Under the pieces are notes generated by a model. The model made no database searches, had not been told where the DNA came from, and worked only from the letters and a program-made list of their open reading frames with translations. Shown here one piece after another: positions 11,566 through 63,763 of a stretch of DNA of 64,000 bases; positions within the stretch are counted from its first letter, which is position 1, and every line of letters begins with the position of its first letter. Made by a program: the position numbers and the translations under genes. Location: the NCBI GenBank assembly GCA_019671135.1, contig JAHRHY010000033.1, positions 1 to 64,000 on the forward strand, written 5' to 3'. The stretch comes from Linnemannia hyalina (taxonomy: Eukaryota > Mortierellomycota > Mortierellomycetes > Mortierellales > Mortierellaceae).

Positions 11566-12060
11566 GGAGGCCTTTCAGGTCCAAGTTATCATATGGTGTT
11601 TGTTACATCTCTGTAGATCTCGACAATATCCATAGCGACTATGGGATGAGAATGTATATATGATACCAAGCATATAAGACAACCATTGTAACATTTTTTG
11701 TTTAACTATCCTACTAAACACCAACCTATTCTCCAAACAACAAAGTCTTCTTATTTTTCGCACACCACACTCTTGAATATGTCCATCTACTATTAACCTG
11801 TAACCCTCACTGCAAGATTCGACAGAGTAGTTCTTGTATGTCATCATCTAAAGCACTTGTACTCTCAACTGTATCTTTGGGGCGAAATACAGGGGAGAGA
11901 TTACATTTTAAAAATTCTTGTGCTGTCTATTGCTATTTTATTCTGTGTTCTGTTGCCCACTATGAAGAGATATGTCAGTTATGGAAGTAAACACTCCGTT
12001 CCTTGGGCTTTGGATATTTTTTATATGCCTTTTTATATCCTCTGCACATGAAGGGGCCGC
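11566..12060 (+). repeat. H1 left terminal module (495 bp)
   Basis: Starts GGAGGCCTTTCA and ends TGAAGGGGCCGC, which are imperfect inverted termini. The same module occurs at both ends of H2 and H3 in direct orientation, alone inside H1 ORF1, and partially at the right edge of the window. This copy belongs to the same sequence subtype as the H4 module (for example GGGGCGAAATACAGG). Confidence 0.85.
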
Positions 12061-12131
12061 TACCGAATAAAATATAAAAATATATTTGTATTCTCAACTA
12101 TGTGCTTGCTGTATGATAGATACCATCCTAC

Positions 12132-12708
12132 ATGCTGTTGTGTATGCAGTTAAGTATAAGCCTTTTTAAAAAATTGTTATTGTTGGTTAACGTCATGACA
12201 ATCCAATACATAAATATTATTATGGATCTAACAAAACACTTCCAACAACTGCTTGATGACCATTGGACTTTCCTCAACGCTGGATGGCCAACAATTACAC
12301 CACGTAATAATCATCGTACTGTAAGCAAGGAAATTGGGTATATGCCAGAAATAAAAGAAACCCTAAATCGACGCCTTGGTCCTATTCCAGTGTACTTCTT
12401 TCTTGTTGACATCTGGCCAAAGGTTAAGTATCCTGGTCCATACAAAGAAGTGGAGAAAGGTCTTTTAATGCTCTATCATCTTGTCAAAGGACTGTCTATG
12501 GAAGCAATGGAACCACACATGCCAAAAAGTAGTTTTCATGCAATGCACTCTGTGTTTTATAAGAAAGAATATACTTTGCACAATAAGTACATCACCAACT
12601 GTATTGCAACAATGTTCTCCACAATTAAAATACGCCTATTGTCTGCAAAGGAAAAGAATCCTCCATTATTTAAGCATGTTACATTGCATCTTGATGGTCA
12701 TGATACAA
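12132..12708 (+). pseudogene. H1 transposase (ORF1), 5' part
   Basis: The first 192 codons of the Harbinger-like transposase, ending just after the first catalytic region HLDGHDT. A terminal module then interrupts it with a 3-bp duplication CAA (12706-12708 and 13204-13206). With the module removed the frame runs on to 13976 unchanged, so this copy was intact before that hit. The ATG at 12132 is the most upstream one; conserved alternatives are at 12195 and 12222. Confidence 0.85.
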
Positions 12709-13203
12709 GCGGCCCCTTCATGTGCAGAGGATATAAAAAGGCATATAAAAAATATCCAAAGTCCAAGGAACGGAGTGTTGACTTCCATAACTGGCATATC
12801 TCTTCATAGTGGGCAACAGAACACAGAATAAAATAGCAATAGACAGCACAAGAATTTTTAAAATGTAATCTCTCCCCTGTATTTCACGACAAAGATACAG
12901 TTGGGAATACAAGTGCTTTAGATGATCACATACAAGAACTACTCTGTCGAATCTTGCAGTGAGGGTTACAGGTTAATAGTAGATGGACATATTCAAGAGT
13001 TTGGTGTGCGAAAAATAAGAAGACTTTGTTGTTTGGAGAATGTAGTTGTGTTTAGTAGGATAATCGCGCAAGGAATGTTACAGTGGTTGTTTTAAATGGT
13101 TGATATCATACATACACTCTCCTCTAATGGACGCGGTGGATATCGTCAAGATCTGCAGAGATGTAACAAACACCATATGATAATTTGGACTTGAAAGGCC
13201 TCC
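12709..13203 (-). mobile_element. Solo Harbinger-like terminal module inside H1 ORF1
   Basis: A 495-bp module in reverse orientation (GCGGCCCCTTCATG to CTTGAAAGGCCTCC), flanked by the 3-bp duplication CAA. Its left half as written matches the H2-type module and its right half, from about 13039, matches the H3-type module. It is therefore a recombinant of two module subtypes and resembles a solo LTR or a MITE. Confidence 0.88.
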
Positions 13204-13976
13204 CAAGAGCAACATACAAAGGTGAGAGCAGTGCTGATATGTACTCTTACAAGCTGAAAAAGTCAGGGTTACGCACACAGGTAGCAATGGATTGTAATGG
13301 CATGGCCTTATTTGTCTCCAAATCTGCATCTTGCAAGAACAATGCTGATGGAACAATGCTGCTAACGATGAAGTTGGACAAGAGAGTGCATGAGATGGAT
13401 TGCATTGCTCTCGATGGAGGGTATCCACAGTTCTTAAGGAGGCTTATAGATGAGTCTGATACTCTTAAAGTCCAAAATTTCGCTCATCCATACCGTAAAC
13501 AGAAGAACAAGGAACTTACACAGGAAGAAGCGTTATACAATACCACCTTTGGTAGTTTCCGCTCGCAGATGGAATCTCTGTTTGCAGACCTTGGTTCCAC
13601 ATTTGAGAAACACAACAACCGTACTCCTGTGTTGGTGGATAAGAAACAAACATATAATTTGCAGTTGAAGTTATCTTTGTTACTCTTAAACATGAAAAAG
13701 ATGGTTGCTTTGTTGAAGATTTCTGCAGAACCAATTCATACAGCTTGGCTTCGCGAAGGATTCGAGTATCCGACGACAGAGAACGATGTTGAGCAACCAA
13801 TGGGATATGTTGATGTTGGTGCACTAGTGGAGGATGGAAATACAATGGCACAACTCCAGAACGAATTTCTTGGTCTTGAACTTCATGATAATGTTGATGA
13901 GGACCAGTACTCTGATGAGGACACACCAATGGATCCACCAGTAATACTGCAACCCGGCCTTTCCATTGCGCTTTGA
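13204..13976 (+). pseudogene. H1 transposase (ORF1), 3' part
   Basis: Continues ORF1 after the solo module. It carries the second catalytic Asp in ALDGGYP and the Glu in RSQMESLF, then a C-terminal acidic tail (DEDQYSDEDTPMD). The stop is at 13974-13976. It is near-identical in protein sequence to the intact copies in H2 and H3. Confidence 0.85.
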
Positions 13977-14690
13977 GGTACGTAGTACGAAGCGACAAAT
14001 GGATGTTAATGGTAATTTGTAGACTTATTGCAGGTTTTTAAAAGAATAGACATACATAGCCTATTTAGTCAGCGTTGAGATACGGTATTAACTGCCAAGA
14101 CGCTAATATGCACCGGTATCTATTATTAAAAGTCATGGTATTATTGTAGTAGATCGGATGCTATTCTATGCTATTCTACAACATTCCTTTTTATTTAACA
14201 AAGAGGATAAACACATGTACAAACCTACGTCATAAAAGAATACATAAACACATGTACAAACCTACGTCATAAAAGAATACTACATTCTTAACCATTTTTA
14301 AACCCCGTCTTTAACGCCAAGCAGTCTTAATAAGCAAGATCTACGTCATACGAGGAACACTACGTTATTAACCACTTAGATGCCTTTTTAAAACTCTTTT
14401 GTTACTAAGCGCCAAGCAGTGCTAATAAGCAAGCGCTATTAATGTCCATTGTGGCAGTGTTCCTGAATTAGTATAAATAAAGGAGTCCACTTCCCTCTTG
14501 CTTAATCTTTATCTAGTAACCAACCAACAATTATCCATATCTATACAACCATCCATACCTATACAACCATCTTTTATTGCAATTCTTTATATCAGTGTAC
14601 TAAGCAGCTGCAATCTACCACACATAAACTGAAAACTCATTCACACCCACCATACCACAAGTACAATCCATATTATTCATATCCAAAAAC
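13977..14690 (+). promoter_or_regulatory. H1 ORF1-ORF2 intergenic region / ORF2 promoter
   Basis: No ORF. It holds two perfect tandem 37-bp units (14207-14243, 14244-14280), each with CTACGTCA, the complement of a bZIP/CRE-like TGACGTAG. A further copy of that motif lies in a degenerate downstream repeat (about 14340). TATAAATAA sits at 14472-14480, about 210 bp before the ORF2 ATG. Confidence 0.6.
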
Positions 14691-15808
14691 ATGAAGTACG
14701 TTCAGCTTACAATCGAGCTCATCACCAAGGCCTTTGAGACATTCTCCTCTAAGAAGGGAGTGGAGTTTAACAAGAAGGATGCAAATAAGATCTTTAAGGC
14801 GCTTGATGAGGATGAGGAAGTAGAGAGATACTACTTTTGTGGAGAAAAGTGCACCAAGTCCAAGCGCAAATGCATGAAGGAAGTTGATGATGAAGGCATG
14901 CATTGTTATGTCCACGATCCTGCGCGCAAGTGTCAAGGCACAACTATTAAGGGTGCTAATTGTGGTAGTGTAGCCAAACTTGGTCAAACATACTGTGGAC
15001 GTCATCAAGATCAAGATAGAGGTTATATAAAACGTAGTAACAACAACGCACCTGTCGACAAGCGTACTAAGTCTTCCAAGGCTTTAAAGAAGACACATAC
15101 TTCTAAGTTTGTGTCTTCCGATGACGATATGACTTCCGAGGATGAAGAACCAAAGAAGCGAAAGAGAAACAAGCAGGAGTCATCGGATGAAGAGCCGTCC
15201 GATGATGATGATGAAGAAGATATAATTGCCGTCTCCTTTCCGTTGAGTCCAAAGGTAGTTGACATAACGTCCAAGAAAAATGTACCACTCGCTAATACAT
15301 GTATATGGACGCGTTATGCAACTAATCCAGCTTTCCTGTATGCAAAAAGCTTTACTGTAAATGGCAAGTACATTATTAGGCTAAAGGAAAAGAATCTCTA
15401 CATTGCATTGTGTCCACCTAAGCTCATGGGCAAGAATCTCCCTGCGCCAGAAATATCTGAGAAAGAGGCACGCATATTGGCCAAGATGGGTCTTCAAGAG
15501 GCAACTTCAGCAGATGTAGAAAAAATAGAAGAGTCTTCTGCTGATGAGAATTCTGACGATGATACAGATGATGGTGATACGTCTGATAATGCTGACTCTG
15601 AGGATGATTCCTCTAAAGATAAAGACTCTGATGATGGCAAGTCCAATAACAGACCTGATGTAGAATCTGGAGATGATACCTCTAAGGATAACCCTGATGA
15701 AAAACTATCTCATAAAAAGCCATCTAAGGATGATGAGAAGAAGACTTCTCGAAAGAAAAGGCATTCAGAGATGCCCAAAAATGCAGAGCCATCTTCTAAT
15801 GTAGATGT
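14691..15808 (+). pseudogene. H1 ORF2, truncated by gypsy-C LTR
   Basis: The first 372 codons of the accessory ORF2 protein: the Cys/His-rich N-terminus, a Lys-rich linker, the first copy of the internal repeat domain and a long acidic region. The ORF is cut at codon 373 by the gypsy-C 5' LTR at 15809; the few residues beyond are LTR-encoded. The full-length copies in H2 and H3 are 748 and 740 aa. Confidence 0.85.
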
Positions 15809-15977
15809 TGTCGCATATTTGCCTGTCTCGGGGGTGTCAGCTAATGTAATTAGGCTAGAGACAGTAATTTAGTCATATGACCAGACACCGACATAAATGG
15901 AGGTGTCTGGGCTGTTAACAAAGATCCCTCTCTTGTCTTATCAATTCGATTGTGCGTGACTAGCGTAAAAAGTTTCA
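15809..15977 (+). repeat. Gypsy-C 5' LTR
   Basis: TGTCGCATATTTGCC to AAAAAGTTTCA, 169 bp. It contains the hairpin CCAGACACC / GGTGTCTGG (15881-15910) with CATAAATGGA in the loop. It is followed by eight T rather than a TGG-type primer site. Confidence 0.9.
15881..15910 (+). promoter_or_regulatory. LTR hairpin with CATAA loop, gypsy-C
   Basis: A perfect 9-bp stem around a 12-nt loop GACATAAATGGA. Gypsy-B and gypsy-E LTRs carry hairpins with a related loop but different stem bases. The same hairpin is in the gypsy-C 3' LTR and in the solo LTR at 24411. Confidence 0.75.
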
Positions 15978-17222: not shown

Positions 17223-17656
17223 TTACGTTCGACCACGCTTGCGCGTGTCAGTAGTGCTGATCTCCTTACTACTCTCTTCGATCGTACTTCTTAACTGGCG
17301 CTTGCCACTGCGGTTTGCTGCTTGATCGGTGGCTCCGTTAGCATTATCTGCATCACCGCGCTTGCGCTTACGCCCTTGTTCGGCATCATTGGCAGTACTG
17401 TCCATGGGTTTATCTGCTGACAGACGTTTACCCTTGCGTTGCACCGAAGATCCCTTCTGACCTTCATTGCCAGATTCGTGTCTCTTCGACGTCCGACGAG
17501 GCTGCGGTAGAGAATTAGCAATTGGTTGATCGCGAGTCTTCCAATAGTCAGATATGCACTTTCTCTCAATAAAGTTCCTCTGAGGCTCCCAAGTCGATTC
17601 TTTGAATCCTTTCCATTTAACGCGATACACTACTCCCTCCCCAGGAATGTCCCTAT
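17223..17656 (-). pseudogene. Gypsy-B gag-pol piece 4: chromodomain and C-terminus
   Basis: The last piece of the gypsy-B polyprotein. It encodes the chromodomain part RDIPGEGVVYRVKWKGFKES to TWEPQRNFIERKC, followed by a basic Lys/Arg-rich tail ending KRGRT. It is separated from piece 3 by H2, whose 3-bp TAT duplication is at 17654-17656 and 23155-23157. The frame across the join is intact, giving the chromodomain start YEVEKILAHR in piece 3 and RDIPG here. Confidence 0.88.
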
Positions 17657-18151
17657 GCGGCCCCTTCATGTGCAGAGGATATAAAAAGGCATATAAAAAA
17701 TATCCAAAGTCCAAGGAACGGAGTGTTGACTTCCATAACTGGCATATCTCTTCATAGTGGGCAACAGAACACAGAATAAAATAGCAATAGACAGCACAAG
17801 AATTTTTAAAATGTAATCTCTCCCCTGTATTTCACGACAAAGATACAGTTGGGAATACAAGTGCTTTAGATGATCACATACAAGAACTACTCTGTCGAAT
17901 CTTGCAGTGAGGGTTACAGGTTAATAGTAGATGGACATATTCAAGAGTTTGGTGTGCGAAAAATAAGAAGACTTTGTTGTTTGGAGAATAGGTTGGTGTT
18001 TAGTAGGATAGTTAAACAAAAAATGTTACAATGGTTGTCTTATATGCTTGGTATCATATATACATTCTCCTCTAATGGACGCGGTGGATATCGTCAAGAT
18101 CTGCAGAGATGTAACAAACACCATATGATAATTTGGACTTGAAAGGCCTCC
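17657..18151 (-). repeat. H2 right terminal module (495 bp)
   Basis: Runs GCGGCCCCTTCATG to GAAAGGCCTCC on the plus strand, in the same orientation as 22660-23154 and matching it throughout by eye. It is joined to the internal region at TA followed by GGTGGAAGTG. Confidence 0.88.
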
Positions 18152-18274
18152 TAGGTGGAAGTGTCGAAGACATGTTACATTTTTAAAAAGTTCATGCTAT
18201 ATATACAACCACAAATGCCAACTGTTGACAATTGGATAGTTTTTAAAATATCTACTCTTCATCTGTCTCAACAA

Positions 18275-20521
18275 CTACCAAAACTTTACATCTGGAGAGT
18301 ACAACTTAGGCAATTCCTCGATCGTGAACCCCATGGCAATTAACTTCTGCTTTTGTTTGTTGTTGGTAAATTTGTCTCGACTATAGTTACTGTCACCGTT
18401 TGCAGGTATCTTATACAGCAGTCCAACAATAATGTCCTCTTCGTACCTCTTGAGCAGATGACATCCGTCGAAAAGGTAGTTGGTTGCATATTCATGCTTC
18501 TTGTCAAACGAACATGTTGTCCATTTAATTTCGTCTTTATCTATGACGATTATACCCGAGGAGCTTTTATCTTTAGGGTACCTTTTCCACATAACATCCT
18601 CAGCATCTTTATCATCCTCAGCATCTTTATCATCTTCAGCATCGTTATCACCCTCAGCATCTTTGTCATCCTCAGCATCGTTATCACCCTCAGCATCTTT
18701 GTCATCTTCAGCATCTTTATCACCCACCGCATCTTTGTCATCCTCAGCATCTTTATCGCCCTCAGCATCTTTATCATCCTCACATGTGCTCTCATCTTTC
18801 TGTGGCAAGCTTTGCTTATGCTCATGCGGTTTAAATCCCATAGCAAACAACTTCTCTTTTTCCTTCTGGCTAAGAGAATGACACTCTACATTCTCTGCAG
18901 CAATATGGTCATCAGTCATCAAGCCGATTACAGTGTCTTTTTTGCGCATCTTGAGAATGTGCATTCCATTTACAAGTACATTCTCGGAATATTCCAAGTA
19001 CTTGTTAAGTTTTTTCCATATCACCTTGGATTTATCTGTTGGTCCTTCTACTGGTACTTCTTCTTCTACTTCGATCTCCTCGTTGAAAAGCGTCTTTCTC
19101 TCTTCATCAGACAATGGTTGAAGTTTCATCTTGCTAAGCATGGAGCGTTCCAAGATATCCAACTCTGGAACATCACCGACACCGCGCAGAGCATCAAGCG
19201 TAAACAGGCCAACGTATGTATTCTTTCCAGATAGCCTGACAATGTACTTGCCATTCATCGTAAACTTAGTTGCATACTCAAGCATGTCGTTATTAGGATG
19301 AATCATCCATCCTCTGTCCTTCGCACGTGCTATGTCTTTCTCTGATCTAATGTTATGCACCGTTGTGGCCAGTGCAAATGTATGTTCATCTTTTCCATCC
19401 TTAGAAACGTCTACATTAGAAGATGGCTCTGCATTTTTGGGCATCTCTGAATGCCTTTTCTTTCGAGAAGTCTTCTTCTCATCATCCTTAGATGACTTTT
19501 TATGAGATAGTTTTTCATCAGGGTTATCCTTAGAGGTATCATCTCCAGATTCTACATCAGGTCTGTTATTGGACTTGCCATCATCAGAGTCTTTATCATC
19601 AGGGGAATCATCGTCAGAGCCAGCATCATCAGACGTATCACCATCATCTGTATCATCGTCAGAATTCTCATCAGCAGAAGACTCTTCTATTTTTTCTACA
19701 TCAGCAGGAGTTGCCTCTTGGAGTCCCATCTTTTGTAATATACGTACCTCTTTGTCAGATAATTTCGGTACAGGAAGATTTTTCCCCATGAGCTCAGGTG
19801 GACACAATACAATGTAGAGGTCCTTTTCCTTCAGCTTAATAATGTACTTGCCATTTACAGTATAGTTTTTTGCATACAGGAAAGCTGGATTAGTTGCATA
19901 ACGCATCCATATGCCTGTATTAGCGAGTGGTACATTTTTCTTGGACGTTATGTCAACTACCTTTGGACTCAACGGAAAGGAGACGGCAATTATATCTTCT
20001 TCATCATCATCGGACGGCTCCTCATCCGATGACTCCTGCTTGTTTCTCTTTCGCTTCTTTGGTTCTTCATCCTCGGAAGTCATATCATCATCTGAAGGGA
20101 CAAACTCAGGAGTATGTGTCTTCTTGGTTATCTTGGAAGACTTGGTACGCTTGTTGGCAGGTGCCTTATTGTTACTGCTTTTCATATGACCTTTATGCTG
20201 CTCTCGATGACGTCCACAGTATGTTTCACCAAGTTTGGCTACACTACCACAATTAGCGCCCTTAATGGTTGTGCCTTGACACTTGCGCGCAGGATCGTGG
20301 ACATAACAATGCATGCCTTCATCATCAACTTCCTTCATGCATTTGCGCTTGGACTTGGTGCACTTTGCACCACAAAAGTAGTATCTCTCTACTCCCTCAT
20401 CCTCATCAAGCGCCTTAAAGATCTTATTTGCATCTTTCTTGGTAAACTCCACTCCCTTCTTAGAAGAAAATGTCTCGAAGGCCTTGGTGATGAGCTCGAT
20501 TGTAAGCTGAACGTACTGCAT
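18275..20521 (-). CDS. H2 ORF2: Cys/His-rich, acidic repeat protein of unknown function
   Basis: 748 aa, no recognised family. Residues 50-105 hold two Cys/His clusters (C50, C54, C61, C72, H75 and C81, C91, C102, H105), plausibly zinc-binding. A Lys-rich, NLS-like linker and Ser/Asp/Glu-rich tracts follow. A repeat of about 65 residues occurs four times in degenerate form (about 204-270, 400-466, 500-565, 645-735), each with a YA..F.VNGKYI.KL-type core and ending L..KMG(L/F). Between repeats 3 and 4 lies a six-residue DDKDAE/GDNDAE array. In PIF/Harbinger elements a second ORF usually encodes a Myb-like DNA-binding partner of the transposase; this protein occupies that position but shows no Myb motif. 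The ATG at 20521 follows a TATA-bearing intergenic region. Confidence 0.8.
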   Translation of the reverse strand: MQYVQLTIELITKAFETFSSKKGVEFTKKDANKIFKALDEDEGVERYYFCGAKCTKSKRKCMKEVDDEGMHCYVHDPARKCQGTTIKGANCGSVAKLGETYCGRHREQHKGHMKSSNNKAPANKRTKSSKITKKTHTPEFVPSDDDMTSEDEEPKKRKRNKQESSDEEPSDDDEEDIIAVSFPLSPKVVDITSKKNVPLANTGIWMRYATNPAFLYAKNYTVNGKYIIKLKEKDLYIVLCPPELMGKNLPVPKLSDKEVRILQKMGLQEATPADVEKIEESSADENSDDDTDDGDTSDDAGSDDDSPDDKDSDDGKSNNRPDVESGDDTSKDNPDEKLSHKKSSKDDEKKTSRKKRHSEMPKNAEPSSNVDVSKDGKDEHTFALATTVHNIRSEKDIARAKDRGWMIHPNNDMLEYATKFTMNGKYIVRLSGKNTYVGLFTLDALRGVGDVPELDILERSMLSKMKLQPLSDEERKTLFNEEIEVEEEVPVEGPTDKSKVIWKKLNKYLEYSENVLVNGMHILKMRKKDTVIGLMTDDHIAAENVECHSLSQKEKEKLFAMGFKPHEHKQSLPQKDESTCEDDKDAEGDKDAEDDKDAVGDKDAEDDKDAEGDNDAEDDKDAEGDNDAEDDKDAEDDKDAEDVMWKRYPKDKSSSGIIVIDKDEIKWTTCSFDKKHEYATNYLFDGCHLLKRYEEDIIVGLLYKIPANGDSNYSRDKFTNNKQKQKLIAMGFTIEELPKLYSPDVKFW
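18592..18780 (-). repeat. 18-bp minisatellite in H2 ORF2 (DKDAE repeats)
   Basis: About ten tandem units of roughly 18 bp encode alternating DDKDAE and GDKDAE or GDNDAE. The same array is at 42530-42715 in H3 and is longer in H4 (about 47785-48045). Unit number differs between copies, so it is length-variable. Confidence 0.85.
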
Positions 20522-21241
20522 GTTTTTGGATATGAACGATATAGATTGTACTTGTGGTATGGTGGGTGTGAATGACTTTTCAGTTTATGTGTGGTAGATT
20601 GCAGCTGCTTAGTACACTGATATAAAGAATTGCAATAAAAGATGGTTGTATAGGTATGGATGGTTGTATAGATATGCATAATGGTTGGTTGGTTACTAGA
20701 TAAGATAAAGATTAAGCAAGAGGGAAGTGGAGTCCTTTATTTATACTAATTCATGGGACACTGCCACACTGGATATTAATAGCGCTTGCTTATTAACACT
20801 GCTTGGCGCTTAGTAACAAAAGAGTTTTAAAAAGGCATCTAAGTGGTTAATAACGTAGTGTTCCTCGTATGACGTAGATCTTGCTTATTAAGACTGCTTG
20901 GCGTTAAAGACGGGGTTTAAAAATGGTTAAGAATGTAGTATTCTTTTATGACGTAGGTTTGTACATGTGTTTATGTATTCTTTTATGACGTAGGTTTGTA
21001 CATGTGTTTATCCTCTTTGTTAAATAAAAAGGAATGTTGTAGAATAGCATAGAATAGCATCCGATCTACTACAATAATACCATGACTTTTAATAATAGAT
21101 ACCGGTGCATATTAGCGTCTAGGCAGTTAATACCGTATCTCAACGCTGACTAAATAGGCTATGTATGTCTATTCTTTTAAAAACCTGCAATAAGTCTACA
21201 AATTACCATTAACATCCATTTGTCGCTTCGTACTACGTACC
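20522..21241 (-). promoter_or_regulatory. H2 ORF1-ORF2 intergenic region / ORF2 promoter
   Basis: Same content as in H1: two tandem 37-bp units (20938-20974, 20975-21011) with TATGACGTAGG, a third TGACGTAG near 20870, and a TATAAATA box near 20740 reading toward ORF2. No ORF. Confidence 0.6.
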
Positions 21242-22588
21242 TCAAAGCGCAATGGAAAGGCCGGGTTGCAGTATTACTGGTGGATCCATTGGTGTGTCCT
21301 CATCAGAGTACTGGTCCTCATCAACATTACCATGAAGTTTAATACCAAGAAATTTGTTCTGGAGTTGTGCCATTGTATTTCCATCCTCCACTAGCGCACC
21401 AACATCAACATATCCCATTGGTTGCTCAACGTCGTTCTCTGTTGTCGGATACTCGAATCCTTCGCGAAGCCAAGCTGTATGAATTGGTTCTGCAGAAATC
21501 TTCAACAAAGCAACCATCTTTTTCATGTTTAAGAGTAACAAAGATAACTTCAACTGCAAATTATATGTTTGTTTCTTATCCACCAACACAGGAGTACGGT
21601 TGTTGTGTTTCTCAAATGTGGAACCAAGGTCTGCAAACAGAGATTCCATCTGCGAGCGGAAACTACCAAAGGTGGTATTGTATAACGCTTCTTCCTGTGT
21701 AAGTTCCTTGTTCTTCTGTTTACGGTATGGATGAGCGAAATTTTGGACTTTAAGAGTATCAGACTCATCTATAAGCCTCCTTAAGAACTGTGGATACCCT
21801 CCATCGAGAGCAATGCAATCCATCTCATGCACTCTCTTGTCCAACTTCATCGTTAGCAGCATTGTTCCATCAGCATTGTTCTTGCAAGATGCAGATTTGG
21901 AGACAAATAAAGCCATGCCATTACAATCCATTGCTACCTGTGTGCGTAATCCTGACTTTTTCAGCTTGTAAGAGTACATATCAGCACTACTCTCACCTTT
22001 GTATGTTGCTCTTGTATCATGACCATCAAGATGCAATGTAACATGCTTAAATAATGGAGGATTCTTTTCCTTTGCAGACAAAAGGCGTATTTTAATTGTG
22101 GAGAACATTGTTGCAATACAGTTGGTGATGTACTTGTTGTGCAAAGTATATTCTTTCTTATAAAACACAGAGTGCATTGCATGAAAACTACTTTTTGGCA
22201 TGTGTGGTTCCATTGCTTCCATAGACAGTCCTTTGACAAGATGGTAGAGCATTAAAAGACCTTTCTCCACTTCTTTGTATGGACCAGGATACTTAACCTT
22301 TGGCCAGATGTCAACAAGAAAGAAGTACACTGGAATAGGACCAAGGCGTCGATTTAGGGTTTCTTTTATTTCTGGCATATACCCAATTTCCTTGCTTACA
22401 GTACGATGATTATTACGTGGTGTAATTGTTGGCCATCCAGCGTTGAGGAAAGTCCAATGGTCATCAAGCAGTTGTTGGAAGTGTTTTGTTAGATCCATAA
22501 TAATATTTATGTATTGGATTGTCATGACGTTAACCAACAATAACAATTTTTTAAAAAGGCTTATACTTAACTGTATACACAACAGCAT
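21242..22588 (-). CDS. H2 ORF1: PIF/Harbinger-like DDE transposase
   Basis: 448 aa. It would cut and join the element ends in the nucleus. The motif order fits a DDE_Tnp_4-type transposase: first Asp in HLDGHDT, a Y.YKL..SG segment, second Asp in ALDGGYP (GDSGYP-like), and Glu in F.SFRSQMESLF, where the family has its R..VE..F motif. In the H3 copy these residues are D180, D254 and E307. A short acidic C-terminus follows. The most upstream ATG is used; downstream Met residues in MTIQYINIIMDLTKHF are conserved in all four copies and could be the true start. The 3-bp target duplications around H2 and H3 support the assignment. Family placement is by motif recognition only. Confidence 0.78.
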   Translation of the reverse strand: MLLCIQLSISLFKKLLLLVNVMTIQYINIIMDLTKHFQQLLDDHWTFLNAGWPTITPRNNHRTVSKEIGYMPEIKETLNRRLGPIPVYFFLVDIWPKVKYPGPYKEVEKGLLMLYHLVKGLSMEAMEPHMPKSSFHAMHSVFYKKEYTLHNKYITNCIATMFSTIKIRLLSAKEKNPPLFKHVTLHLDGHDTRATYKGESSADMYSYKLKKSGLRTQVAMDCNGMALFVSKSASCKNNADGTMLLTMKLDKRVHEMDCIALDGGYPQFLRRLIDESDTLKVQNFAHPYRKQKNKELTQEEALYNTTFGSFRSQMESLFADLGSTFEKHNNRTPVLVDKKQTYNLQLKLSLLLLNMKKMVALLKISAEPIHTAWLREGFEYPTTENDVEQPMGYVDVGALVEDGNTMAQLQNKFLGIKLHGNVDEDQYSDEDTPMDPPVILQPGLSIAL

Positions 22589-22659
22589 GTATGATGGTAT
22601 CTATCATACAGCAAGCACATAGTTGAGAATACAAATATATTTTTATATTTTTTTCGGTA

Positions 22660-23154
22660 GCGGCCCCTTCATGTGCAGAGGATATAAAAAGGCATATAAA
22701 AAATATCCAAAGTCCAAGGAACGGAGTGTTGACTTCCATAACTGGCATATCTCTTCATAGTGGGCAACAGAACACAGAATAAAATAGCAATAGACAGCAC
22801 AAGAATTTTTAAAATGTAATCTCTCCCCTGTATTTCACGACAAAGATACAGTTGGGAATACAAGTGCTTTAGATGATCACATACAAGAACTACTCTGTCG
22901 AATCTTGCAGTGAGGGTTACAGGTTAATAGTAGATGGACATATTCAAGAGTTTGGTGTGCGAAAAATAAGAAGACTTTGTTGTTTGGAGAATAGGTTGGT
23001 GTTTAGTAGGATAGTTAAACAAAAAATGTTACAATGGTTGTCTTATATGCTTGGTATCATATATACATTCTCCTCTAATGGACGCGGTGGATATCGTCAA
23101 GATCTGCAGAGATGTAACAAACACCATATGATAATTTGGACTTGAAAGGCCTCC
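22660..23154 (-). repeat. H2 left terminal module (495 bp)
   Basis: Direct-repeat partner of 17657-18151, with no difference seen by eye. It lies about 70 bp upstream of the first transposase ATG, so it could carry the ORF1 promoter (TATAAAAAGG-like stretches near its inner edge). TAT follows at 23155-23157. Confidence 0.88.
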
Positions 23155-24410
23155 TATGGGCGAGAATTTTTTCTACCTCGTAAGTCACTGTTTCTTCGTA
23201 GTCGTCGAGTACAAGCTTAAGCTGTGACGGTGCGAAATTGCGTCGTAGCAGCTCCCCAGTCCCATCTCTGAGAACATAAGAGCCACCAGTAGTGCGTTGA
23301 ACAACAGTGTAAGGGCCTTCATATCTAGGTGATAGCTTGTCACCCTTGATTGGATCCAAAGACATTACCTTCGCTCCATCAGCGAACTCATTGTGCAGTA
23401 CCGTTCGGTTAAAACGCTCAATCATTCGTCGTTGAGTTTCACGAGCCTTAGCTTCAACCCCTGGAAAGACAATTTGAGTCATGTACTCAAGTCTCTCCAA
23501 AAGTTTTTCATGAGAAGTAATAGCACCCTTTTCGTCCGAGAAATTGCTCAACCCATTGAATCGTCGAGCAAAAAATAGCGAGAACGGTGACGAGTTGTGC
23601 AGAGCGACGACCCTTGCATTCATGGCCAGCTGTGCCATGGGTACATGCATCGCCCAAGTTTCTTTTCTGTCGACGCATTCTTTGCGGATGATAGTACATG
23701 CTGTTTTAACATGATTCTCGGCGACTCCGTTTCCGCGAGGATGATAAGGTGTGACCAAACGGTGTTGTACACCCATGTTTGTAGTCATCTCTTTCATTAT
23801 ATCGCTAACGAACTCTCTGCCATTGTCTGATTGAAGGACACGCGGAAAACCAATTAAGGAGAAAAGTCTGAATAGCACTCTAGCTATGGTAAGTGTTGCC
23901 TTGTCAGGTATAGGTTCAAGGATCACAAATCGTGTACAGACATCAACCACAATTAGGAGAAACGCGTTTCCATTGCTTTGTACAGGGAAGGGACCAGCTA
24001 AATCTATAGCCATGTGTTCGCCTGGTAACTGAGCATGAACAGCAGTCATTGGATGGTATCCTTTGCGCGCGATATTTACTCGCTGGCATTCTCGGCAACG
24101 TTGAACGTACTCCAAACAATCCTTAGCCAAATGCGGCCAAGTTTTGTTCAGTCCATGAATGTGTTTCACCATAGCATTGGTCCCGAAGTGACCTAATGCA
24201 TGGGTGTCGGCCAAGACCACTTTCCTTTCGGAGAGCGCTACCGTCTGGCGAGGAGTGGATGAATCTTGGATCAAATGAACGTAGCCATACACCTTAGTCG
24301 GGACTGATCCCTCCGTTCTACTCGTCCATAACTCCTGAGGAAACTGTCGAGACAAGGCATCTGGCAGCACGTTCAGTACTCCAGGGCGATAAACAACCTT
24401 GAATGTGTAT
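23155..24410 (-). pseudogene. Gypsy-B gag-pol piece 3: integrase
   Basis: Encodes, in order, the end of RNase H (NVLPDALSRQFP), the integrase zinc domain (HALGHFG to CRECQR), the core D-D-E (MAIDLAGPF, LQSDNGREF, GNGVAENH) and the linker into the chromodomain (YEVEKILAHR). The frame is open throughout. It is separated from piece 2 by a solo gypsy-C LTR and from piece 4 by H2. Apparent extra residues at the H2 end are module-encoded. Confidence 0.9.
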
Positions 24411-38166: not shown

Positions 38167-38662
38167 GGAGGCCTTTCAAGTCCAAATTATCATATGGTGT
38201 TTGTTACATCTCTGCAGATCTTGACGATATCCACCGCGTCCATTAGAGGAGAGTGTATGTATGATATCAACCATTTAAAACAACCACTGTAACATTCCTT
38301 GCGCGATTATCCTACTAAACACAACTACATTCTCCAAACAACAAAGTCTTCTTATTTTTCGCTCACCAATATCTTGAATGTGTTCATCTACTATTAAACT
38401 GTACCCATCACTGCAAGATTCGCCTGAGTAGTTCTTGTATGTGATCATCTAAAGCACTTGCACTCTCAACTGTATCTTTGTCGTGAAATACAGGGGAGAG
38501 ATTACATTTTAAAAAAAAATTGTGCTATATGTTGCTATTTTATCCTATGTTCTGTTGCCGACTGTGAAGAGATATATCAGCTATGGAAGTCAACACTCCG
38601 TTCCTTGGGCTTTGGATATTTTGTATATGCTTTTTTATATCCTCTGCACATGAAGGGGCCGC
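38167..38662 (+). repeat. H3 left terminal module (496 bp)
   Basis: GGAGGCCTTTCAAG to CATGAAGGGGCCGC. The inner junction reads GCCGC-TA-CCG. It differs from 43157-43652 at about two positions (near 38368 and 38634). Confidence 0.88.
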
Positions 38663-38767
38663 TACCGAAAAAAAATATAAAAATATATTTGTATTCTCAA
38701 CTATGTGCTTGCTGTGAGATACAGTTGATAGATACCATCCTACATGCTCTTGTGTATGCAGTAAAGT

Positions 38768-40090
38768 ATGAGCATTTTTAAAAAATTGTTATTGTTGGTC
38801 AACGTCATGACAATCCAATACATAAATATTATTATGGCTCTAACAAAACATTTCAAACAACTGCTTGATGACCATTGGACTTTCCTTGACGCTGGATGGC
38901 CAACAGTTACACCACGTAATAACCATCGTACTGTAAGCAAAGAAATTGGGTTTATGCCACAAATAAAAGAGACTCTGAATCGACGCCTTGGACCTATTCC
39001 AGTGTACTTCTTTCTTGTTGATATCTGGCCAAAAGTCAAGTATCCTGGGCCATACAAAGAAGTGGAGAAAGGTCTTTTAATGCTCTATCATCTTGTCAAA
39101 GGACTGTCTATGGAAGCAATGGAACCACACATGCCAAAAAGTAGTTTTCATGCAATGCACTCTGTGTTTTATAAGAAAGAATATACTTTGCACAATAAGT
39201 ACATCACCAACTGTATTGCAACAATGTTCTCCACAATTAAAATACGCCTATTGTCTGCAAAGGAAAAGAATCCTGTATTATTTAAGCATGTCACATTGCA
39301 TCTTGATGGTCATGATACAAGAGCAACATACAAAGGTGAGAGCAGTGCTGATATGTATTCTTACAAGCTGAAAAAGTCAGGATTACGCACACAGGTAGCA
39401 ATGGATTGTAATGGCATGGCTTTATTTGTCTCCAAATCTGCATCTTGCAAGAACAATGCTGATGGAACAATGCTGCTGACGATGAAGTTGGACAAGAGAG
39501 TGCATGAGATGGATTGCATAGCTCTCGATGGAGGGTATCCACAGTTCTTAAGGAGGCTTGTAGATGAGTCTGATACTCTTAGATTCCAAAATTTCGCTCA
39601 TCCATACCGTAAAAAGAAGAACAAGGAACTTACAGAGGAAGAAGCGTTATACAATACCACCTTTGGTAGTTTCCGCTCACAGATGGAATCTCTGTTTGCA
39701 GATCTTGGTTCCACATTTGAGAAACACAACAATCGTACTCCTGTATTGGTGGATAAGAAACAAACATATAATTTGCAGTTGAAGTTATCTTTGTTACTCT
39801 TAAACATGAAAAAGATGGTTGCTTTGTTGAAGATTCCTGCAGAACCAATTCATACAGCTTGGCTCCGCGAAGGATTCGAGTATCCGACGACAGAGAACGA
39901 TGTTGAGCAACCAATGGGATATGTTGATGTTGGTGCACTAGTGGAGGATGGAAATACAATGGCACAACTCCAGAACGAATTTCTTGGTCTTGAACTTCAT
40001 GATAATGTTGATGAGGACCAGTACTCTGATGAGGACACACCAATGGATCCACCAGTAATACTGCAACCCGGCCTTTCCATTGCGCTTTGA
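38768..40090 (+). CDS. H3 ORF1: PIF/Harbinger-like DDE transposase
   Basis: 440 aa, open and probably functional. Catalytic candidates are D180 (HLDGHDT), D254 (ALDGGYP) and E307 (SQMESLF), in the motif context of DDE_Tnp_4 transposases. It starts MSIFKKLL where the other copies have a slightly longer upstream frame, which makes the shared internal Met (MTIQYINIIM) attractive alternatives. It differs from H2 ORF1 at scattered residues (MALTKHFKQLL against MDLTKHFQQLL; VDESDTLRF against IDESDTLKV), unlike the ORF2 3' half, which appears identical. It would act on the GGAGGCC and GCGGCCCC outer ends. Confidence 0.78.
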   Translation: MSIFKKLLLLVNVMTIQYINIIMALTKHFKQLLDDHWTFLDAGWPTVTPRNNHRTVSKEIGFMPQIKETLNRRLGPIPVYFFLVDIWPKVKYPGPYKEVEKGLLMLYHLVKGLSMEAMEPHMPKSSFHAMHSVFYKKEYTLHNKYITNCIATMFSTIKIRLLSAKEKNPVLFKHVTLHLDGHDTRATYKGESSADMYSYKLKKSGLRTQVAMDCNGMALFVSKSASCKNNADGTMLLTMKLDKRVHEMDCIALDGGYPQFLRRLVDESDTLRFQNFAHPYRKKKNKELTEEEALYNTTFGSFRSQMESLFADLGSTFEKHNNRTPVLVDKKQTYNLQLKLSLLLLNMKKMVALLKIPAEPIHTAWLREGFEYPTTENDVEQPMGYVDVGALVEDGNTMAQLQNEFLGLELHDNVDEDQYSDEDTPMDPPVILQPGLSIAL

Positions 40091-40810
40091 GGTACGTAGT
40101 ACGAAGCGACAAATGGATGTTAATGGTAATTTGTAGACTTATTGCAGGTTTTTAAAAGAATAGACATACATAGCCTATTTAGTCAGCGTTGAGATACGGT
40201 ATTAACTGCCAAGACGCTAATATGCACCGGTATCTATTATTAAAAGTCATGGTATTATTGTAGTAGATCGGATGCTATTCTATGCTATTCTACAACATTC
40301 CTTTTTATTTAACAAAGAGGATAAACACATGTACAAACCTACGTCATAAAAGAATACATAAACACATGTACAAACCTACGTCATAAAAGAATACTACATT
40401 CTTAACCATTTTTAAACCCCGTCTTTAACGCCAAGCAGTCTTAATAAGCAAGATCTACGTCATACGAGGAACACTACGTTATTAACCACTTAGATGCCTT
40501 TTTAAAACTCTTTTGTTACTAAGCGCCAAGCAGTGTTAATAAGCAAGCGCTATTAATATCCAATGTGGCAGTGTCCCATGAATTAGTATAAATAAAGGAC
40601 TCCACTTCCCTCTTGCTTAATCTTTATCTTATCTAGTAACCAACCAACCATTATCCATATCTATACAACCATCCATACCTATACAACCATCTTTTATTGC
40701 AATTCTTTATATCAGTGTACTAAGCAGCTGCAATCTACCACACATAAACTGAAAAGTCATTCACACCCACCATATCACAAGTACAATCTATATCGTTCAT
40801 ATCCAAAAAC
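40091..40810 (+). promoter_or_regulatory. H3 ORF1-ORF2 intergenic region / ORF2 promoter
   Basis: Tandem 37-bp units at 40321-40357 and 40358-40394 with CTACGTCATA, a further CTACGTCATACG near 40456, and TATAAATAAAGG near 40587, about 220 bp upstream of the ORF2 ATG. No ORF. Confidence 0.6.
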
Positions 40811-43033
40811 ATGCAGTACGTTCAGCTTACAATCGAGCTCATCACCAAGGCCTTCGAGACATTTTCTTCTAAGAAGGGAGTGGAGTTTACCAAGAAAGAT
40901 GCAAATAAGATCTTTAAGGCGCTTGATGGGGATAAGGAAGTGGAGAGATACTACTTTTGTGGAGCAAAGTGCGTCAAGTCCAAGCGTAAATGCATGAAGG
41001 AAGTTGACGATGAAGGCATGCATTGTTATGTCCACGATCCTGCGCGCAAGTGTCAAGGCACAACCATTAAGGGCGCTAATTGTGGTAGTGTAGCCAAAAT
41101 TGGTCAAACATACTGTGGGCGTCATCAAGATCAAGATAGAGGTCATATAAAACGTGGTAACAAGAAGGCACCTGTCGTTACGCGTCCCAAGTCTTCCAAG
41201 GCTTTAAAGAAGACACATACTTCTAAGTTTGTATCATCTGATGACGATATGACTTCCGAGGATGAAGAGCCGTCCGACGATGATGATGAAGAAGATAAAA
41301 TTGCCGTCTCCTTTCCGTTGAGTCCAAAGGTAGTTGACATAACGTCCAAGAAAAATGTACCACTCGCTAATACAGGCATATGGATGCGTTATGCAACTAA
41401 TCCAGCTTTTCTGTATGCAAAAAACTATACTGTAAATGGCAAGTACATTATTAAGCTGAAGGAAAAGGATCTCTACGTTGTATTGTGTCCACCTGAGCTC
41501 ATGGGGAAAAATCTTCCTGTACCGGAATTATCTGACAAAGAGGTACGTATATTGCAAAAGATGGGACTCCAAGAGGCAACTCCTGCAGATGTAGAAAAAA
41601 TAGAAGAGTCTTCTGCTGATGAGAATTCTGACGATGATACAGATGATGGTGATACGTCTGATGATGGTGATACGTCTGATGATGCTGGCTCTGACGATGA
41701 TTCCCCTGATGATAAAGACTCTGATGATGGCAAGTCCAATAACAGACCTAATGTAGAATCTGGAGATGATACCTCTAAGGATAACCCTGATGAAAAACTA
41801 TCTCATAAAAAGTCATCTAAGGATGATAAGAAGAAGACTCTTCGAAAGAAATGGCCTTCAAAGATGCCCAAAAATGCAGAGCCATCTTCTAATGTAGACG
41901 TTTCTAAGGATGGAAAAGATGAACATACATTTGCACTGGCCACAACGGTGCATAACATTAGATCAGAGAAAGACATAGCACGTGCGAAGGACAGAGGATG
42001 GATGATTCATCCTAATAACGACATGCTTGAGTATGCAACTAAGTTTACGATGAATGGCAAGTACATTGTCAGGCTATCTGGAAAGAATACATACGTTGGC
42101 CTGTTTACGCTTGATGCTCTGCGCGGTGTCGGTGATGTTCCAGAGTTGGATATCTTGGAACGCTCCATGCTTAGCAAGATGAAACTTCAACCATTGTCTG
42201 ATGAAGAGAGAAAGACGCTTTTCAACGAGGAGATCGAAGTAGAAGAAGAAGTACCAGTAGAAGGACCAACAGATAAATCCAAGGTGATATGGAAAAAACT
42301 TAACAAGTACTTGGAATATTCCGAGAATGTACTTGTAAATGGAATGCACATTCTCAAGATGCGCAAAAAAGACACTGTAATCGGCTTGATGACTGATGAC
42401 CATATTGCTGCAGAGAATGTAGAGTGTCATTCTCTTAGCCAGAAGGAAAAAGAGAAGTTGTTTGCTATGGGATTTAAACCGCATGAGCATAAGCAAAGCT
42501 TGCCACAGAAAGATGAGAGCACATGTGAGGATGATAAAGATGCTGAGGGCGATAAAGATGCTGAGGATGACAAAGATGCGGTGGGTGATAAAGATGCTGA
42601 AGATGACAAAGATGCTGAGGGTGATAACGATGCTGAGGATGACAAAGATGCTGAGGGTGATAACGATGCTGAAGATGATAAAGATGCTGAGGATGATAAA
42701 GATGCTGAGGATGTTATGTGGAAAAGGTACCCTAAAGATAAAAGCTCCTCGGGTATAATCGTCATAGATAAAGACGAAATTAAATGGACAACATGTTCGT
42801 TTGACAAGAAGCATGAATATGCAACCAACTACCTTTTCGACGGATGTCATCTGCTCAAGAGGTACGAAGAGGACATTATTGTTGGACTGCTGTATAAGAT
42901 ACCTGCAAACGGTGACAGTAACTATAGTCGAGACAAATTTACCAACAACAAACAAAAGCAGAAGTTAATTGCCATGGGGTTCACGATCGAGGAATTGCCT
43001 AAATTGTACTCTCCAGATGTAAAGTTTTGGTAG
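40811..43033 (+). CDS. H3 ORF2: Cys/His-rich, acidic repeat protein of unknown function
   Basis: 740 aa, same architecture as H2 ORF2: N-terminal Cys/His clusters, Lys-rich linker, four degenerate copies of a repeat of about 65 residues, and a DKDAE minisatellite-encoded acidic array (42530-42715). Compared with H2 it lacks a KKRKRNKQESSDE stretch and has an extra DDGDTS unit. From about codon 365 to the stop it appears identical to H2, including silent positions, which indicates recent common descent or gene conversion. The function is unknown; as the partner ORF of a Harbinger-like transposase it may bind element ends or assist nuclear import, which is inference only. Confidence 0.8.
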   Translation: MQYVQLTIELITKAFETFSSKKGVEFTKKDANKIFKALDGDKEVERYYFCGAKCVKSKRKCMKEVDDEGMHCYVHDPARKCQGTTIKGANCGSVAKIGQTYCGRHQDQDRGHIKRGNKKAPVVTRPKSSKALKKTHTSKFVSSDDDMTSEDEEPSDDDDEEDKIAVSFPLSPKVVDITSKKNVPLANTGIWMRYATNPAFLYAKNYTVNGKYIIKLKEKDLYVVLCPPELMGKNLPVPELSDKEVRILQKMGLQEATPADVEKIEESSADENSDDDTDDGDTSDDGDTSDDAGSDDDSPDDKDSDDGKSNNRPNVESGDDTSKDNPDEKLSHKKSSKDDKKKTLRKKWPSKMPKNAEPSSNVDVSKDGKDEHTFALATTVHNIRSEKDIARAKDRGWMIHPNNDMLEYATKFTMNGKYIVRLSGKNTYVGLFTLDALRGVGDVPELDILERSMLSKMKLQPLSDEERKTLFNEEIEVEEEVPVEGPTDKSKVIWKKLNKYLEYSENVLVNGMHILKMRKKDTVIGLMTDDHIAAENVECHSLSQKEKEKLFAMGFKPHEHKQSLPQKDESTCEDDKDAEGDKDAEDDKDAVGDKDAEDDKDAEGDNDAEDDKDAEGDNDAEDDKDAEDDKDAEDVMWKRYPKDKSSSGIIVIDKDEIKWTTCSFDKKHEYATNYLFDGCHLLKRYEEDIIVGLLYKIPANGDSNYSRDKFTNNKQKQKLIAMGFTIEELPKLYSPDVKFW

Positions 43034-43156
43034 TTGTTGAGACAGATGAAGAGTAGATATTTTAAAAACTATCCAATTGTCAACAGTTGGCATTTGTGGT
43101 TGTATATATAGCATGAACTTTTTAAAAATGTAACATGTCTTCGACACTTCCACCTA

Positions 43157-43652
43157 GGAGGCCTTTCAAGTCCAAATTATCATATGGTGTTTGTTACATC
43201 TCTGCAGATCTTGACGATATCCACCGCGTCCATTAGAGGAGAGTGTATGTATGATATCAACCATTTAAAACAACCACTGTAACATTCCTTGCGCGATTAT
43301 CCTACTAAACACAACTACATTCTCCAAACAACAAAGTCTTCTTATTTTTCGCTCACCTATATCTTGAATGTGTTCATCTACTATTAAACTGTACCCATCA
43401 CTGCAAGATTCGCCTGAGTAGTTCTTGTATGTGATCATCTAAAGCACTTGCACTCTCAACTGTATCTTTGTCGTGAAATACAGGGGAGAGATTACATTTT
43501 AAAAAAAAATTGTGCTATATGTTGCTATTTTATCCTATGTTCTGTTGCCGACTGTGAAGAGATATATCAGCTATGGAAGTCAACACTCCGTTCCTTGGGC
43601 TTTGGATATTTTTTATATGCTTTTTTATATCCTCTGCACATGAAGGGGCCGC
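43157..43652 (+). repeat. H3 right terminal module (496 bp)
   Basis: Direct repeat of 38167-38662. The inner junction reads CCACC-TA-GGAGGCC, and the target copy TTA follows at 43653-43655. Confidence 0.88.
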
Positions 43653-47175: not shown

Positions 47176-47344
47176 TGTCGCATATTTGCCTGTCTCGGGG
47201 GTGTCAGCTAATGTAATTAGGCTAGAGACAGTAATTTAGTCATATGACCAGACACCGACATAAATGGAGGTGTCTGGGCTGTTAACAAAGATCCCTCTCT
47301 TGTCTTATCAATTCGATTGTGCGTGACTAGCGTAAAAATTTTCA
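47176..47344 (+). repeat. Gypsy-C 3' LTR
   Basis: 169 bp, differing from the 5' LTR at one base (AAAATTTTCA against AAAAGTTTCA). It is followed by GGTGGAAGTG, the extreme end of the H4 internal region, not by a copy of the left flank. Confidence 0.9.
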
Positions 47345-47465
47345 GGTGGAAGTGTCGAAGACATGTTACATTTTTAAAAAGTTCATGCTATATATACAAC
47401 CACAAATGCCAACTGTTGACAATTGAATAGTTTTTAAAATATCTACTCTTCATCTGTCTCAACAA

Positions 47466-49196
47466 CTACCAAAACTTTACATCTGGAGAGTACAATTTAG
47501 GCAATTCCTCGATCGTGAACCCCATGGCAATTAACTTCTGCTTTTGTTTGTTGTTGGTAAATTTGTCTCGACTATAGTTACTGTCACCGTTTGCAGGTAT
47601 CTTATACAGCAGTCCAACAATAATGTCCTCTTCGTACCTCTTGAGCAGATGACATCCGTCGAAAAGGTAGTTGGTTGCATATTCATGCTTCTTGTCAAAC
47701 GAACATGTTGTCCATTTAATTTCGTCTTTATCTATGACGATTATACCCGAGGAGCTTTTATCTTTAGGGTACCTTTTCCACATAACATCCTCAGCATCTT
47801 TATCATCCTCAGCATCTTTATCATCTTCAGCATCGTTATCACCCTCAGCATCTTTGTCATCCTCAGCATCGTTATCACCCTCAGCATCTTTGTCATCTTC
47901 AGCATCTTTATCACCCACCGCATCTTTGTCATCCTCAGCATCGTTATCACCCTCAGCATCTTTGTCATCTTCAGCATCTTTATCACCCACCGCATCTTTG
48001 TCATCCTCAGCATCTTTATCGCCCTCAGCATCTTTATCATCCTCACATGTGCTCTCATCTTTCTGTGGCAAGCTTTGCTTATGCTCATGCGGTTTAAATC
48101 CCATAGCAAACAACTTCTCTTTTTCCTTCTGGCTAAGAGAATGACACTCTACATTCTCTGCAGCAATATGGTCATCAGTCATCAAGCCGATTACAGTGTC
48201 TTTTTTGCGCATCTTGAGAATGTGCATTCCATTTACAAGTAAATTCTCGGAATATTCCAAGTACTTGTTAAGTTTTTTCCATATCACCTTGGATTTATCT
48301 GTTGGTCCTTCTACTGGTACTTCTTCTTCTACTTCGATCTCCTCGTTGAAAAGCGTCTTTCTCTCTTCATCAGACAATGGTTGAAGTTTCATCTTGCTAA
48401 GCATGGAGCGTTCCAAGATATCCAACTCTGGAACATCACCGACACCGCGCAGAGCATCAAGCGTAAACAGGCCAACGTATGTATTCTTTCCAGATAGCCT
48501 GACAATGTACTTGCCATTCATCGTAAACCTAGTTGCATACTCAAGCATGTCGTTATTAGGATGAATCATCCATCCTCTGTCCTTCGCACGTGCTATGTCT
48601 TTCTCTGATCTAATGTTATGCACCGTTGTGGCCAGTGCAAATGTATGTTCATCTTTTCCATCCTTAGAAACGTCTACATTAGAAGATGGCTCTGCATTTT
48701 TGGGCATCTTTGAAGGCCTTTTCTTTCGAAGAGTCTTCTTCTTATCATCAGCAGAAGACTCTTCTATTTTTTCTACATCTGCAGGAGTTGCCTCTTGGAG
48801 TTCCATCTTTTGTAATATACGTGCCTCTTTTTCAGATATTTCCGGTACAGGAAGATTTTTGCCCATGAGCTCAGGTGGACACAATACAATGTAGAGATCC
48901 TTTTCCTTCAGCTTAATAATGTACTTGCCATTTACAGTAAAGTTCTTTGCATACAGAAAAGCTGGATTAGTTGCATAACGCATCCATATGCCTGTATTAG
49001 CGAGTGGTACATTTTTCTTGGACGTTATGTCAACTACCTTTGGACTCAACGGAAAGGAGACGGCAATTTTATCTTCTTCATCATCATCGTCGGACGGCTC
49101 TTCATCCTCGGAAGTCATATCGTCATCAGATGATACAAACTTAGAAGTATGTGTCTTCTTTAAAGCCTTGGAAGACTTGGGACGCGTAACGACAGG
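47466..49196 (-). pseudogene. H4 ORF2, 3' part (internally deleted)
   Basis: Continues from 61285 across gypsy-D in frame (NKNA then PVVTRPK). It lacks about 80 acidic residues present in H2 and H3: the text passes directly from KIEESSAD to DKKKTLRKK. It has a longer DKDAE array (about 47785-48045). The four-repeat architecture is otherwise kept. With gypsy-D removed the protein would be about 696 aa. Confidence 0.85.
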
Positions 49197-49201
49197 TGCA
49201 T

Positions 49202-49300
49202 TGCAACAGTTGAACCTCCGATCAGAGTAGCTTTAGATAAATAGACACACACTACCATAATACATCCACATCTCTTACTTCCACTCCTCCTAAAGTTGCA
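49202..49300 (+). repeat. Gypsy-D 5' LTR (99 bp)
   Basis: TGCAACAGTTGAACC to CTAAAGTTGCA. It is unusually short for a full-length gypsy element, and its ends resemble those of gypsy-A (TGCAAC..TTGCA). Confidence 0.93.
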
Positions 49301-63692: not shown

Positions 63693-63763
63693 GTAGGATG
63701 GTATCTATCATATAGCAAGCACATAGTTGAGAATACAAATATATTTTTATATTTTTTTCGGTA

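Follow-up and report, generated by a model that had tools for sequence, protein, structure and literature searches.

A Harbinger-like DNA transposon with LTR-like terminal direct repeats in Linnemannia hyalina

Near-identical terminal repeats, solo repeats and a target-site duplication (TSD) outside the whole unit characterize long terminal repeat (LTR) retrotransposons and terminal-repeat retrotransposons in miniature (TRIMs), and they are found again in the element described here, a transposon located in the first 64,000 nucleotides (forward strand; the window) of contig JAHRHY010000033.1 of the fungus Linnemannia hyalina (assembly GCA_019671135.1). Unlike those retroelements, it has interior open reading frames (ORFs) without a reverse transcriptase, ends that are not TG..CA, and an enzyme of the DDE_Tnp_4 type. 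Transposons of the PIF/Harbinger group, to which it likely belongs, have TWA as their canonical TSD.

Its closest described counterpart among DNA transposons is KolobokP, of the Kolobok superfamily in animals (Kojima and Bao 2022, PMC9587614), which its authors set apart from all other DNA transposons for its architecture. According to the portion of that paper drawn on here, KolobokP is a DDE transposon whose interior lies between long terminal direct repeats (about 450 or 660 bp, against 495 bp here) with short inverted ends of their own, and it also occurs as solo repeats with TSDs and as multimers sharing repeats. The same portion attributes to it a Kolobok transposase with the C/DxxH signature, zinc fingers, a His-Me finger nuclease and TSDs of 3-5 bp, whereas the fungal element has a DDE_Tnp_4 transposase, the C/DxxH signature in none of 33 aligned transposases, no nuclease detectable by Pfam or NCBIfam, and a 3-bp TSD. 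One KolobokP family often loses single repeats, whereas no clear single-repeat loss is seen here; KolobokP-4N1 of clam is credited with 46 one-sided copies versus 90 monomers. Left-right identity per insertion is not tabulated in the main-text portion covered. A preliminary description of the window knew of no PIF/Harbinger element of this build; among the matches listed in literature searches none was found in print, and the architecture as such has a precedent in KolobokP, from another superfamily.

Bacterial IS6/IS26 elements offer a second parallel. The parts of a review that bear on it (PMC7986276) describe direct repeats of a mobile unit around a passenger, a new duplication at the outer ends, and a cointegrate product from which host recombination releases a circle, with a single repeat left behind. 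In a model given there, the circle then makes a new cointegrate; IS903, an IS5-family member, is named as capable of alternative pathways. The differences are that IS26-type elements, as portrayed there, are bacterial, make an 8-bp TSD and carry the transposase gene in the repeated unit, which here lies in the passenger.

Terminal modules and their left-right identity

Two complete copies in the window, H2 and H3, consist of a module (M) repeated in direct orientation around an interior (I) of about 4.5 kb, hereafter M-I-M, with a single 3-bp TSD outside:

17657-23154, + strand: H2, whole element, M(495)-I(4508)-M(495)
17654..17656, no strand: left TAT of the H2 target duplication, from flank reading
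17657..18151, + strand: H2 left module, 495 bp, identical to 22660-23154
18152..22659, + strand: H2 interior, 4508 bp, with edges TAGGTGGA... and ...TTCGGTA
22660..23154, + strand: H2 right module, 495 bp, with TSD TAT outside
23155..23157, no strand: right TAT of the H2 target duplication, from flank reading
38167-43652, - strand: H3, whole element, M(496)-I(4494)-M(496), with TSD TAA outside
43157..43652, - strand: H3 left module, 496 bp, from module alignment and flanks
38663..43156, - strand: H3 interior, 4494 bp, read whole
38167..38662, - strand: H3 right module, 496 bp, differing from the H3 left module at 2 positions, TAA outside

The preliminary description had given both elements 495-bp direct modules with imperfect inverted ends of their own, nearly identical within an element and several dozen differences apart between elements, and only the module length in H3 needs correction. 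The H2 modules, in the same orientation, are 100% identical over 495 bp; H2 and H3 modules align at 90.1% identity, with 48 mismatches; and the module ends, GCGGCCCCTTC and, read inward from the opposite end, GGAGGCCTTTC, form a short imperfect inverted repeat. The M-I-M arrangement of H2 and H3 is real and not due to chance, because the 495-bp repeat is exact and the arrangement recurs across the genome. H2 sits inside a Ty3/gypsy element, with a chromodomain ORF to its left and integrase and reverse transcriptase ORFs to its right; these three belong to the interrupted gypsy element and not to H2.

Genome-wide counts were made in the 51.5-Mb assembly of 50 contigs, whose contig C27 begins with the window; the announcement of L. 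hyalina SCG-10 (PMC8444964) reports a PacBio assembly with 52 contigs and 51.56 Mb, a little larger than the sequence searched here. The genome contains 94 full-length transposase matches, some with one stop (94 scored of 312 candidates), 65 exact left junctions with interior type A and 58 left junctions with interior type B. Right junctions number 122 when up to 3 mismatches are allowed, and exact outer left ends 248, a count in which elements with TSDs of the form GNA, omitted from the outer-end search patterns, are under-represented. The two interior types share their edges and are about 4.5 and 4.8 kb long; about 1 kb beside the left module gives no blastn alignment between them (L012, L017, L018, L019 and L022 against H2). 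The matches listed yielded 75 left-right pairs, of which 69 are spaced 4.7-5.35 kb. Both modules were read for 67 pairs, and nine were set aside (five whose left module was also paired as a right one, three whose right module continues into another interior, and one with no recognisable right end), leaving 58 single elements. The single outer 3-bp TSD previously reported for H2 and H3 is matched in 46 of the 58, at 42 distinct sites.

Elements with only one module, or with unrelated modules at their two ends, which had been named as the pattern that would contradict this architecture, are not the rule. On the left, 65 of 66 type-A interior edges and 57 of 57 type-B edges carry a module, and the one exception abuts another repeat, of 169 bp; on the right, where 111 edges were counted, all of the 100 listed have one. 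What tells against the generality of M-I-M is that, of 116 right modules, 41 lacked a left partner among the matches listed at first, and 35 once type-B left ends were included; the three that were readable (L009, L023 and H1 of the window) are all left-truncated copies.

Within an element the two modules are far closer than modules of different elements, as a tabulation of copies proposed in the preliminary description now documents. Each distinct flank pair is represented by one copy in the haplotype and between-element figures. Of the 42 TSD-matched sites, 32 have identical left and right modules, nine have modules differing at 1-3 positions and one has 19 differences, in a single block; no more than 3 bp thus separate the two modules at 41 of these sites. 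Modules of different elements differ at a mean of 22.1 positions and are identical in 6.6% of 861 comparisons, and shuffling of the left-right pairing yielded a mean of 3.6 identical pairs and a maximum of 13 in 10,000 trials. Ten unequal haplotype pairs each occur at one site only, none recurring. In 15 elements read whole (14 of them TSD-matched), divergence between elements is 5.9% in interiors and 5.6% in modules (left against another's right), with 0-2 left-right differences within an element; the inner junctions are constant and the outer ones variable. Variants private to one element number five in both modules and nine in one only. Changes by which subfamilies differ are thus mostly found in both modules: the two are made from one.

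Modules also occur alone and in dimers. From 200 listed of the 248 outer left ends came 134 solo candidates, among them 18 that turned out to be left modules of type B. Forty of the 134 were sampled in random order, passing over one cut by a contig start; five of the forty had no recognisable right end and six ran into an interior, leaving 29. Twenty-five of these 29 have their own matching TSD, at 24 sites, and 19 lie within 2 differences of a full-element module. One dimer, on C12, has three identical modules and TTA as its outer triplets; another, on C8, has pairwise module differences of 0, 5 and 5 and outer triplets ATT.

Empty sites, which support the single outer TSD, were recovered for three of the window's insertions: the joined flanks of H3 match 180 of 180 bases in L024 and L026, those of the window's solo module match 120 of 120 in L012, L017 and L022, and those of H2 align without gaps over 175 bases, with 83% identity, to a further gypsy copy within the window. 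The TSDs at the 42 sites comprise 18 triplets (ATA 8, TAA 5, TAT 5, TTA 3, AAA 3, and others), and the target is A/T-rich, preceded by C at 31 of 42 sites and followed by G at 26 of 42; solo targets show the same tendency (C before at 17 of 25, G after at 13 of 25). Such a target resembles the extended target of PIF, on which a literature search found no paper. On contigs longer than 600 kb, 52 of 58 pairs lie within 100 kb of a contig end, against 72 of 100 solo candidates; copies of the transposon are concentrated near contig ends. At C44:2819099-2844170, four left junctions follow one another at intervals of about 8.35 kb, and none of the right junctions listed falls there; this is perhaps a tandem array of a larger unit.

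Encoded proteins and classification

The H2 interior has two long ORFs, neither of which has a Pfam match to reverse transcriptase:

21242..22588, - strand: DDE_Tnp_4 transposase ORF, 448 aa, Pfam E 1.5e-07, above the gathering score
18275..20521, - strand: second ORF, 748 aa, no Pfam match

The 448-aa ORF supports the earlier reading as a DNA transposon with a DDE-type enzyme. Its acidic triad (D188, D262, E315) is invariant across 33 aligned sequences, all 33 relatives have the DDE_Tnp_4 domain, none has the Kolobok C/DxxH signature between the second D and E, and the predicted structure matches RNase H-fold transposases. Named relatives, among the 120 listed of 238 matches, come from Mortierella and its kin and from Apophysomyces, all early-diverging fungi. 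A C-terminal chromodomain occurs in six of the 33 (P0081, P0090, P0099, P0108, P0113 and P0119), a possible chromatin-targeting variant. Among 100 matches scored, 52 belong to a second DDE_Tnp_4 family (C16, C12, C33, C24 and others), which has mostly intact frames of about 441 aa and is 65-68% identical to P0063.

The 748-aa protein has two Cys/His clusters near its N-terminus, in columns invariant in the alignment, followed by acidic repeats; its relatives give DUF5763/DUF7576 matches, mostly below threshold, and its structure is predicted at low confidence. Neither it nor ten relatives matched Myb/SANT in Pfam or NCBIfam, though a diverged domain may be present, and no His-Me finger nuclease was detected in it or its relatives by the same databases, the low-confidence structure model giving no basis for judging.

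The element resembles PIF/Harbinger (PHIS) transposons in its DDE_Tnp_4 transposase, its second, non-transposase ORF, its A/T-rich 3-bp TSD and its short inverted ends, and differs from them in its many TSD sequences in place of TWA and in the lack of a Myb/SANT match in the second protein. The Harbinger-like label given previously is supported in part, by the Pfam domain (33 of 33), the DDE triad without C/DxxH and the mostly A/T 3-bp TSDs; the 18 triplets at 42 sites do not follow a strict TWA. Related lineages with TSDs of 0, 2 or 3 bp are described in the passages of PMC12730594 drawn on here. Membership in PIF/Harbinger is likely, as assigned by the DDE_Tnp_4 domain, the catalytic motif and the TSD length rather than by a tree with reference elements.

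Origin of full elements

The best account of these data, although one that we stop short of calling probable, is that M is the transposing unit and M-I-M a cointegrate formed by replicative insertion of a one-repeat circle, as in the pseudo-compound transposons of the IS26 type. M, with its own inverted ends, would be what the transposase acts upon, and I a passenger bearing the transposase gene. The cycle would have three steps: homologous recombination between the two modules of an integrated M-I-M, giving a one-M, one-I circle and leaving a solo M with its TSD; nicking by the transposase of both ends of the circle's single M and their joining to a staggered 3-bp target; and replication across M, giving target-TSD-M-I-M-TSD-target, a Shapiro cointegrate. 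In such a cycle both modules would be identical at birth, with a single TSD outside, because both are daughters of one M. Near-identity and an outer-only TSD are what a cointegrate predicts, and they are seen in existing copies, not at birth. Also in favour of the cycle are the persistence of unequal modules in TSD-mismatched elements, the confinement of each unequal pair to one site, the solos with TSDs, the dimers, the empty sites, the lack of clear module excision, and the product and cycle described for IS6/IS26.

Several observations weigh against this reading. The inner module edges read GTA and TAG and share only TA, with no 3-bp repeat, which counts against a cointegrate because the donor module's duplication should stay at the inner edges. 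At one duplicated site with four copies, the copy on C20 has modules differing at 21 positions and the other three at 0, so modules can change after insertion. Ten of the 29 sampled solos are 5-18 differences away from the closest of the full-element modules examined, and some of these may have moved alone or be old. A full element (C8:37326) and a solo module (C26:112323) share the same flanks and TSD TTG although their modules belong to different types (48 columns vary across the three), a pair that a simple circle cycle does not predict; the site was either rewritten by recombination or had its module replaced. PIF/Harbinger elements are described as cut-and-paste in the portions of the literature covered, and the circle, the nick and the replication are steps that we infer, none of them having been observed. 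Finally, the failure to find excision of M, discussed next, could also mean that the inner ends are poor substrates.

A somewhat unlikely alternative, which fits most of the data and retains the chemistry usual for Harbinger-type transposases, is that a one-module circle forms multimers, (M-I)n, by replication or recombination, from which the transposase excises and inserts M-I-M or a dimer by cut-and-paste. The modules would be equal since they are copied from the M of one circle, and equality, outer TSDs, solos and dimers are all predicted. Cutting at M ends should, however, also free single modules and leave bare interior edges, and neither a clear module excision nor a clear bare edge was found among 123 left and 100 listed right edges. 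Bare edges should be common if single modules were often cut out. The scheme further requires a replicating or multimeric circle, for which this analysis offers no support.

It is unlikely that a two-ended M-I-M moves as an ordinary unit and that its modules are kept equal by left-right gene conversion at every site. In favour of such homogenisation are conversion-like changes: one block, over positions 334-409, at C10:1305343 and also in the duplicate of that element, C35:38091, together with the unequal modules in the C20 copy of the four-copy duplicated site. The recombinant elements point the other way. Mismatched outer triplets are expected after recombination between copies, and at least 6 left-right differences are present at 7 of 12 TSD-mismatched sites versus 1 of 42 TSD-matched sites (P=3e-5); without two probable mispairings, C12:3807278 (an extra right module behind a complete element) and C28:5418, the former figure is 5 of 10 (P=5e-4). 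Conversion in place is thus not fast, as these elements retain 6-51 differences, and unequal pairs never recur at another site, although either fact could reflect young age. Since unequal modules persist in recombinant elements, equality looks, from these comparisons, to be set at insertion rather than by fast conversion; slow conversion remains compatible.

That full elements arise when an M-I circle recombines into a resident solo M, as in one model for KolobokP, is decidedly improbable. Such an element would retain the TSD of the solo, and a full element and a solo at the same duplicated site do exist (C8:37326 and C26:112323); recombination between unlike modules should, however, give reciprocal left-right mosaics, yet left equals right at 32 of 42 sites, and the process could add some copies, hardly most. 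An RNA route, in which M is a true LTR copied by the reverse transcriptase of Ty3/gypsy elements, is the most improbable of all: LTR-like equality at most insertions and the adjacent gypsy elements fit it, whereas the ends are not TG..CA, the TSD is 3 bp, M has inverted ends, the encoded enzyme is a DDE_Tnp_4 transposase, and the interior edges, judged by eye with no tRNA comparison run, have no tRNA-like primer site or purine tract.

Other copies in the window and significance of the family

The remaining traces of the family in the window are partial copies, fragments and one solo module:

11566..15809, - strand: H1, right module (11566-12060, - strand) and interior, stopping at 15809 against the 169-bp repeat and split by a solo module, from sequence comparison
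12709..13203, + strand: solo module, TSD CAA, within the transposase gene of the decayed copy H1, from its flanks and the empty site in other copies
47344..49202, + strand: interior fragments abutting the 169-bp repeat, with the sole type-A left interior edge (1 of 66) that has no module
61285..64000, + strand: H4, interior and the start of a right module at 63764, ending at the window end, from sequence comparison

The 169-bp repeat lies at 15809-15977, 24411-24579 (- strand) and 47176-47344, and also in L008, L011, L023, L025 and L028. Its copies are 99-100% identical, start with TG and end with CA to within about 1 base, and are perhaps an LTR or solo LTR; the solo module L146 is inserted in one. 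Positions 1-250 of the window, at the contig start, are a 10-bp tandem repeat, CCCTAAAAAA, which is telomere-like (TTTTTTAGGG).

An LTR-like composite architecture has probably arisen independently in a Harbinger-type transposon. With another type of DDE transposase and another kingdom now showing it, the design appears to have been invented repeatedly. It is quite possible, if tentative, that a eukaryotic transposon here spreads by cointegrates, with M as a unit like an insertion sequence, I with its transposase gene as a plasmid-like passenger, and M-I-M as the replicative fusion of circle and chromosome. If so, this family and KolobokP would be two independent cases of a cointegrate life cycle, KolobokP being the second, and DNA transposons would have acquired LTR-like ends on more than one occasion. 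With its many near-identical copies, the fungal family is a test ground for whether eukaryotic DDE transposons can move replicatively by way of a circle.

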